In this document: piece by piece, positions 63,067 through 64,000 of the stretch
Position numbering within the stretch: the first letter of the stretch is position 1
Layout of the letters: the number at the start of each line of letters is the position of its first letter
From: Methylobacterium sp. PvR107
GTDB taxonomy: Bacteria > Pseudomonadota > Alphaproteobacteria > Rhizobiales > Beijerinckiaceae
Assembly (NCBI RefSeq): GCF_017833295.1
Contig: NZ_JAFIBW010000001.1
Span: 5,580,001 to 5,644,000 of the forward strand
DNA length: 64,000 bases
Direction: 5' to 3'
Made by a program: the position numbers and the translations under genes
The notes under the pieces: generated by a model
Seen by the model: the letters and a program-made list of their open reading frames with translations, nothing else
What the model was told of the DNA's origin: nothing
The model's database searches: none

Positions 63067-63816
63067 TCAGGAAAGCGTTACCGATTTCCGGCCCTTCGGG
63101 CCGGCTGCGGCCAGCATGACGTCGTCGCTGCCGACCTCCAGGCCGGTGTAGCCCAGCATCTCGGCGAGTTGCGTCCGGGCGCGCCAGACGCGGCTCTTCA
63201 CCGTGCCGATCTGGCAGTTCATCACGGTGGCTGTCTGTTCATAGGTGAGGTTCTCGATCGCCACGAGAACCAGGGCCTGCCGCATCGAAGGCGCGAGGCG
63301 GTCGAGGGCGGTGCGCACGTCGCTCAGGTCCAGGTGGCCGCCCTGCTCGGGCAACGACACCATCCGCTCGGCCTGTGTGCCGTCCTCGTCCTGGACCTCG
63401 CGGCCGCGCTTACGGTGCTCGTTGTAGAACTGGTTGCGCATGATCGTGAACAGCCACGCCTCCAGGTTGGTGCCCGGAGCGAAGCTGGCGCGCGACCGCC
63501 ACGCCCGCAGAAGGGTGTTCTGCAGGAGGTCGTCGGCCCCGACAGGGTTGCGCAGCAGCGAGCGCGCGAAGCGCTGCAGGTTCGGCACCATGGCAAGCAG
63601 GGAGGTCTGGAACGTCTTCTCGCGGCCGTCCTGCGCCTTGCCGAACGCCGCATCGAGCAGCGTCAACAGTTCGGCGAAGCGGTCCGCGATGGGAGGCTGG
63701 ACTGAATCCTGTGCGTAGGTCGCCGCCAGAAGATGGCCGAGGTGATACTGCACGCTGTCCGGGAGCCGGGGCGCCTGCGCGGCGATTGTATCACCGTCGA
63801 GCGAGAATTCGAGCAT
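63067..63816 (-). CDS. EcfG-type sigma factor with NepR-like N-terminus
   Basis: 249 residues. Residues about 68-140 are sigma region 2 (LQRFARSLLRNPVGADDLLQ, TNLEAWLFTIMRNQFYNEHRK) and 162-222 region 4 (LAPSMRQALVLVAIENLTYEQ, then IGTVKSRVWRARTQLAEMLG), of the EcfG general-stress type. Residues 21-58 (LGHLLAATYAQDSVQPPIADRF then AELLTLLD) closely follow the core of the anti-sigma factor NepR (LGRQLRAxYDxxVxxPVPDRFLDLLxxLD). The start ATG at 63816 has AGGTGA nine bases upstream. No separate nepR or phyR gene is visible, although the window ends soon after. Confidence 0.85.
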   Translation of the reverse strand: MLEFSLDGDTIAAQAPRLPDSVQYHLGHLLAATYAQDSVQPPIADRFAELLTLLDAAFGKAQDGREKTFQTSLLAMVPNLQRFARSLLRNPVGADDLLQNTLLRAWRSRASFAPGTNLEAWLFTIMRNQFYNEHRKRGREVQDEDGTQAERMVSLPEQGGHLDLSDVRTALDRLAPSMRQALVLVAIENLTYEQTATVMNCQIGTVKSRVWRARTQLAEMLGYTGLEVGSDDVMLAAAGPKGRKSVTLS

Positions 63817-63891
63817 GACAGCCGATCACCTGAGCGGGATGAAAGAGCGGGTACGGTCATTAATCCCCAGGTACCAGCTTATTGCCGCAAC

Positions 63892-63929
63892 ATAGATCAG
63901 CGGTTAGCCAGATCCTAAGACTGATCTAT
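63892..63929. promoter_or_regulatory. Inverted CTGATCTAT pair upstream of the sigma factor
   Basis: ATAGATCAG (63892-63900) and CTGATCTAT (63921-63929) are exact inverse complements separated by 20 bases, 76 bases or more before the sigma factor start. A further CTGATCTAT is at 62328-62336. It may be an operator or part of a promoter. Confidence 0.4.
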
Positions 63930-64000
63930 GATAGATACCATGATCAACGCGACAGACATGCGGAGCGGGACAGCGTCTTCGATGAGAAAATTTCGAGCGC

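Follow-up and report, generated by a model that had tools for sequence, protein, structure and literature searches.

NepR is the protein that normally inhibits EcfG-type stress sigma factors, and a gene for EcfG is usually, if not universally, located beside nepR and phyR. A gene of Methylobacterium sp. PvR107 raises the question of what an EcfG-type sigma factor does with a NepR-like segment of its own. The gene lies in a stretch of 64,000 nucleotides (the window; contig NZ_JAFIBW010000001.1, positions 5,580,001 to 5,644,000), where an open reading frame with exact boundaries runs on the minus strand from ATG to stop (63067-63816) and encodes 249 amino acids. Sigma regions 2 and 4 of the EcfG/PhyR type were identified in the product with scores that are all above the Pfam cut-offs, namely 60.5 bits for Sigma70_r2 (PF04542), 44.5 for Sigma70_r4_2 (PF08281), 42.1 for PhyR_sigma2 (PF22029), and 31.0 for PhyR_sigma-like (PF22233), which identifies the protein as an EcfG/ECF15 sigma factor. 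By sequence, the solved protein nearest to it is the sigma factor of Bartonella quintana that was crystallized with NepR (5uxx, E 7e-43), and its sigma part is 46% identical to 5uxx_A. The gene (genome position 5643067) is located away from nepR and phyR; the strongest PhyR_sigma2 match of the genome is found at G000:C1:4160337, and nepR at 4159811. The features of the locus are collected in Table 1.

Table 1. Features of the extended sigma factor gene and its upstream region (positions in the window)
Feature	Position	Strand	Basis or remark
EcfG/ECF15-type sigma factor with NepR-like N-terminal extension	63067-63816	minus	249 aa, stop included in the positions; Pfam, orthologs
Residues 1-13, unconstrained N-terminal tail	63778-63816	minus	dN/dS 1.25 (7 orthologs); pLDDT <50
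Residues 18-58, NepR-like segment	63643-63765	minus	NepR HMM and shuffles, profile-profile match, dN/dS 0.18 (residues 14-58)
Residues 20-36, predicted helix resembling NepR helix 1 (L30, A31, Y34 at LRxxY)	63709-63759	minus	AlphaFold; L30/Y34 conservation
Residues 43-58, predicted helix resembling NepR helix 2	63643-63690	minus	AlphaFold; dN/dS 0.14
Residues 42-55, PIADRFAELLTLLD motif	63652-63693	minus	PxxDRFxxLLxxLD match
Residues 67-140, sigma region 2	63397-63618	minus	PF04542 at 78-139, PF22029; model fit to 5uxx_C
Residues 166-217, sigma region 4	63166-63321	minus	PF08281, PF22233
Conserved upstream block GCTGATCTATGTTGCGGC	63884-63901	minus	68-85 bases upstream of sigma start; 7/7 orthologs, one base changed in one

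The first-pass annotation had reported the pattern PxxDRFxxLLxxLD of NepR in this reading frame. The pattern is literally there as PIADRFAELLTLLD, and this is its single occurrence in the six frames of the window. Against the Pfam family of NepR (PF18557, cut-off 25.7 bits), the whole protein scored 11.7 bits (E 0.21) and residues 1-67 scored 14.4 bits (E 0.029), NepR being the sole Pfam family reported for those residues at E up to 10. Among ten relatives scanned in the same way, P0053 passed the cut-off (29.2 bits), P0112 and P0113 matched weakly (15.2 and 18.0 bits), and seven gave no match at E 1. Because the cut-off was missed, the segment is termed NepR-derived here and is not filed as NepR.

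A more sensitive NepR profile was built from 48 stand-alone NepRs (40 belonging to other genera, 2 to other Methylobacterium species, L079 and L083, and 6 to close Methylobacterium). With this profile, residues 14-66 scored 17.4 bits, a value reached by 0 of 20,000 shuffles of that stretch (maximum 14.4). The aligned N-termini of 84 proteins, the window's included, had a median of 15.8 bits and a maximum of 36.9; none of 4,200 shuffles across these N-termini came to 17.4 bits (maximum 8.6), and the sigma parts of the same 84 proteins, used as a negative control, reached at most 12.9 bits. The sigma factor ORF also ranked first (13.2 bits, E 0.0025; next 7.7) among the window's 940 six-frame stretches of at least 30 amino acids. 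Profile-profile comparison of the 84 N-termini (again including that of the window) with 42 NepR rows (the 40 NepRs of other genera together with L079 and L083) gave a probability of 97.7 and a score of 52.6, whereas 200 column-shuffled controls gave at most 75.9 and 24.2, respectively. At 10 named orthologs (L113-L122), the top match to the NepR profile within about 2 kb on either side was the sigma factor's own frame, with E values that ranged from 0.0003 to 0.21 and thus were not significant for every member by itself, and the profile detected no separate NepR-like gene beyond noise within about 2 kb at any of the ten.

Since the shuffles, the profile-profile controls, and the ortholog matches, taken together, argue for homology and not for chance, we conclude from these comparisons of sequence that residues 18-58 are homologous to the two-helix core of NepR, with which the predicted helices at 20-36 and 43-58 agree. 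The alternative, that an amphipathic helical leader came to resemble NepR by chance, is highly improbable: it would accord with the E values of 0.21 and 0.029 obtained with PF18557 and with the seven relatives that lack a match, but it is contradicted by the shuffles, by the profile-profile controls, and by the existence of relatives with PF18557 and sigma domains in one protein. Short of an error in the profiles, the shuffles and profile-profile controls rule it out. Thus, the comparison of residues 1-65 with PF18557 that the first-pass annotation had proposed formally failed with Pfam itself and was rescued by the NepR profile and by P0053, while the fusion that it described, of a NepR-like segment with complete sigma regions 2 and 4, is borne out by the Pfam sigma domains, both profile methods, and the selection data given below.

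Selection on the segment was measured by dN/dS among seven orthologs. The first helix (residues 20-36) gave 0.12, the second (43-58) 0.14, and the loop between them 0.36, with 0.18 for residues 14-58 as a whole, 1.25 for residues 1-13, and 0.30 for residues 59-66; in the rest of the protein, sigma2 gave 0.09, sigma4 0.12, the linker (141-165) 0.02, and the C-terminal tail 0.24. Constraint on the two helices is therefore similar to that on sigma4, whereas the tail that precedes them drifts. This measured constraint on the coding sequence says that the NepR-like segment does something in the subgroup to which the window protein belongs. In Sphingomonas melonis NepR, the substitutions L32A and Y36A reportedly reduce function in vivo, and R33A is tolerated under the conditions tested (PMC6599016). 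In our alignment, L32, R33, and Y36 correspond to L30, A31, and Y34 of the window protein, so that the leucine and the tyrosine are kept. L30 is Leu in 82 of the 84 aligned proteins and in 137 of a wider set of 140, and Y34 is Tyr in 83 of the 84 and in 129 of the 140. Position 31 varies among the 84 (Ala 56, Gly 18, Arg 7, Val 2, and Gln 1), and Arg occupies it in 82 of the wider 140. At seven positions, at least 85% of the 48 stand-alone NepRs have the same residue; five of these residues (L, Y, P, D, and L) recur in the window protein, which has lost the Arg of LR and, in PVPDRF, the second Pro. Between L54 and F69, on the way to sigma2, lie 14 residues in 74 of the 84 proteins and in 113 of the 140.

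The structure was predicted twice with AlphaFold, by using 84 sequences from 120 relatives listed (model 1) and 140 sequences chosen for diversity and length (model 2), which resulted in mean pLDDT values of 68.8 and 75.8 and pTM values of 0.39 and 0.42, respectively. Helices at 20-36/37 and 43-58 were predicted in both models, and the pLDDT means of the ten-residue blocks from 11 to 60 were 56-75 in model 1 and 59-84 in model 2. Sigma2 of the second model fits 5uxx_C to 1.4 A over 78 residues. When both sigma domains were superposed on 5uxx, the rmsd was 15-17 A for both models at these low pTM values, and neither model reproduced the closed, NepR-bound form of sigma seen in 5uxx. Structural matches of the models obtained with VIA-align fall essentially on the sigma part, and no NepR chain is among the matches listed, which is no evidence against a NepR match. 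The suggestion made earlier that the segment folds back on the sigma domains was thus answered in part, at low pTM: two helices are predicted at the places of those of NepR and the segment is not predicted to be disordered, but the arrangement of sigma2 and sigma4 is unlike that of the NepR-bound crystal.

Six EcfG paralogs are present in M. extorquens AM1, and an N-terminal extension of about 55 residues has been described on its EcfG proteins, which is reportedly missing from Alphaproteobacteria other than Methylobacteriaceae (PMC4814048, 2016). The likeness of this extension to NepR had been noted earlier (reference 4 of PMC4814048), and an ancient fusion was proposed as its possible origin (PMC4814048). 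The window protein has a NepR-like N-terminal extension of about 55 amino acids and is a further case of these published NepR-extended EcfG proteins of Methylobacteriaceae; a nepR-ecfG fusion is thus already in print for the genus. The likeness to the AM1 EcfGs extends to the ECF15 sigma, the multiple paralogs, a gene away from the phyR locus, and the lack of an upstream EcfG-type promoter (PMC4814048); unlike the AM1 family, the window paralog belongs to a subgroup with members in 7 of 41 genomes. M. extorquens paralogs other than EcfG1 are reportedly not common to distant species (PMC4814048). Regulatory parts in cis are also known from other ECF sigma factors, and fusion of an anti-sigma factor has been proposed for them; the extensions named in the accessible portion of that source are C-terminal, or N-terminal in Planctomycetes, and a NepR type is not mentioned there (PMC8103513). 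No later study of the EcfG extension was found among the hits listed from the open-licence literature. What is added here is a statistical case for a sub-threshold match, a measurement of selection, a mapping of residues, and a gene-overlap route to the fusion.

The first-pass annotation treated the NepR-sigma fusion as unusual, but it is common in Methylobacterium. That it is unique or new is ruled out by the published M. extorquens extension and by relatives such as P0053 with both domains. Six of the 40 further Methylobacterium genomes that were searched have a full-length version of the window protein with 85-91% identity (7/41 with the source genome), and 10 of 48 loci in a scan of GTDB contigs had it full-length or nearly so (81-89% identity), all in Methylobacterium; this distribution therefore marks it as a paralog of one Methylobacterium subgroup. 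Its closest named homologs are likewise from Methylobacterium. The source genome has seven EcfG-type genes that score above 140 bits in a search with the window protein. Five paralogs besides the window gene have an open-frame extension before sigma2 (L008, L009, L011, L012, and L013), that of L013 being undetected by the NepR profile, and one locus (L002/L010, G000:C1:2913438-2914141) keeps the two-gene form, with nepR (PF18557, 42.5 bits) upstream and its stop overlapping the ecfG start in ATGA. The window protein is 49% identical to the paralog of the genome that is labeled here as putatively EcfG1-like. Many EcfG1-like proteins among the best 120 of 7962 relatives carry precomputed PF18557 together with sigma domains, some of them labeled Microvirga (P0199, P0206, and P0216), and the NepR Arg that is absent from the window segment is kept by 18 of 18 aligned EcfG1-like proteins. 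At the loci examined, the EcfG proteins from other genera are without a NepR-like segment. Annotation of such proteins holds a trap, in that several of P0162, P0164, P0166, P0193, and P0199 are named "NepR family anti-sigma factor" by NCBI despite complete sigma domains in precomputed Pfam data.

How the two parts came together may be read from gene order. The canonical nepR-ecfG pair and the B. quintana complex (5uxx) have the two domains in the same order, NepR and then EcfG, but as two proteins from neighboring, mostly overlapping genes, where the window has one protein. Among 47 nepR-sigma combinations in the loci (at most 30 per search), 6 on opposite strands and 4 too distant were excluded; 28 of the remaining 37 same-strand neighbors, including the pair of the source genome, overlap by four bases (start ATG, GTG, or TTG). 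A slip of the frame within an overlap of this kind would give a fused protein, and the NepR core was probably acquired in this way, through loss of the frame boundary in an overlapping nepR-ecfG pair. A tree was made of 78 sigma cores after the 5 that were weakest among 83 had been dropped. The extended group needs two label changes on it, and one change is sufficient in 8% of bootstrap trees; of the extended paralogs in the source genome, L012 and L013 lie outside the main group and L011 pairs with two distant rows, and there are long branches that come together, so that the tree accommodates a single fusion as well as several.

Other NepR-like sequences were encountered in the course of these searches. 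The window protein's nearest paralog (62% identical) is adjoined by a convergent, stand-alone NepR-like gene (L006/L166, G000:C1:6116431-6116523, minus strand), which scores 23.9 bits in the source genome, below the Pfam cut-off. A convergent NepR-like gene is present at all four loci of the tree clade of this nearest paralog (loci including L090-L092) and at 11 of the 13 loci L123-L135, which hold relatives of 61-65% identity, being absent at L129 and L132. Three Methylobacterium species also have a protein in which a NepR-like segment is followed by a single receiver domain, i.e., L004 (G000:C1:2049350), L161 (G189), and L163 (G148). In L004, which is from the source genome, both PF00072 (45.6 bits) and PF18557 (25.9 bits) are above cut-off; in L161 and L163, PF00072 is above it (39.8 and 32.6 bits) and PF18557 below (22.9 and 19.7 bits). 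These NepR-receiver proteins, which were not found named in the literature searched, could be phosphorylation-gated NepRs. In addition, a hybrid histidine kinase with two receiver domains (L005/L165, G000:C1:5571872-5571973) ends in a NepR-like tail that scores 27.6 bits with PF18557 in six-frame translation and 23.2 bits, below the cut-off of 25.7, in a scan of the 536-aa ORF.

Upstream of the window gene, no EcfG-type promoter was found in the 184 bases present in the window. The conserved GCTGATCTATGTTGCGGC block, of which there is one exact copy in the genome, is overlapped in the window's own copy by an inverted repeat (63891-63900 and 63921-63930, with a 20-base spacer). One half, ACATAGATCAG, recurs ahead of an ORF outside the window that resembles a putative Crp/Fnr regulator.

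With regard to the role of the segment, we propose, with moderate confidence, that it serves this paralog mainly as a weak built-in cap against free NepR and acts only secondarily as an autoinhibitor. In M. extorquens, NepR bound in vitro only to truncated EcfG1 that was without the extension, and two-hybrid binding was seen only with truncated EcfG1 and, weakly, truncated EcfG5 (PMC4814048). Judging from these data, the extension may compete with free NepR for sigma, with the cis segment occupying the sigma2-sigma4 surface that free NepR would otherwise use; such competition would make a shielding cap the simplest role, and RNA polymerase would still be able to displace a cap that is weak. 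The cap would not be absolute, because both EcfG1 isoforms, full-length and minus 14 residues, were pulled down with NepR in vivo although they keep all or most of the extension (PMC4814048). The homology to NepR, the purifying selection on both helices, the kept contact residues, and the near-constant linker length are in favor of the cap, as are the apparently constitutive activity of the extended EcfG2 of M. extorquens (PMC4814048) and the lack of a separate NepR-like gene near the ten named orthologs; against it are the two models without a NepR-bound closed sigma, the origin of the binding data from M. extorquens paralogs outside the window subgroup, and the loss of the near-invariant Arg of NepR and of the second Pro in PVPDRF. 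This loss would also suit a structural relic, in which the helices only stabilize sigma2 without a regulatory partner, as would the sub-threshold Pfam score for NepR and the closeness with which sigma2 follows the second helix. We consider such a relic improbable, since positions that are known from mutants of NepR are among the best conserved and the segment is absent from the EcfGs of other genera in the loci examined.

The conserved contact residues bear on PhyR as well. A self-inhibited sigma factor may be imagined, in which the cis segment closes sigma2 and sigma4 until phosphorylated PhyR binds the segment and frees sigma without a separate NepR. The Leu and Tyr that contact PhyR are kept, two M. 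extorquens NepR homologues bind PhyR while binding to any EcfG was not detected, and the authors of that study expect PhyR to control the remaining EcfG proteins, in particular EcfG2, by a mechanism they had not identified (PMC4814048). Direct opening by PhyR nonetheless appears rather unlikely, because neither model predicts the closed conformation, EcfG2 of M. extorquens seems to be constitutively active despite its extension, and PhyR binding by an EcfG extension is not reported in the accessible portion of that source (PMC4814048). If the segment is instead exposed, it may bind phosphorylated PhyR as a sink in trans and thereby release NepR to silence other EcfGs, a negative feedback like that of META2p0735 or NepR2. 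A role as PhyR antagonist has been proposed for S. melonis NepR2 and for M. extorquens META2p0735 (PMC6599016, PMC4814048), and a sink would be consistent with the constraint on the contact residues and with the prediction of the helices but not of their docked form. META2p0735 has an EcfG-type promoter (PMC4814048), but none was found in the 500 bases upstream of any of the seven orthologs, and we regard the sink as quite unlikely.

The L30 and Y34 residues retained under constraint offer a two-residue handle on the role of the segment, and the overlap statistics suggest how a pair of genes could simply become a fused partner switch. Direct opening by PhyR, if true, would explain how those EcfG paralogs of Methylobacterium that are independent of NepR come under PhyR control, and if it is the cap that PhyR opens, one protein would replace two of the textbook partner switch. 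If the built-in cap only shields against NepR, it would show how duplicated sigma factors can escape a shared inhibitor.
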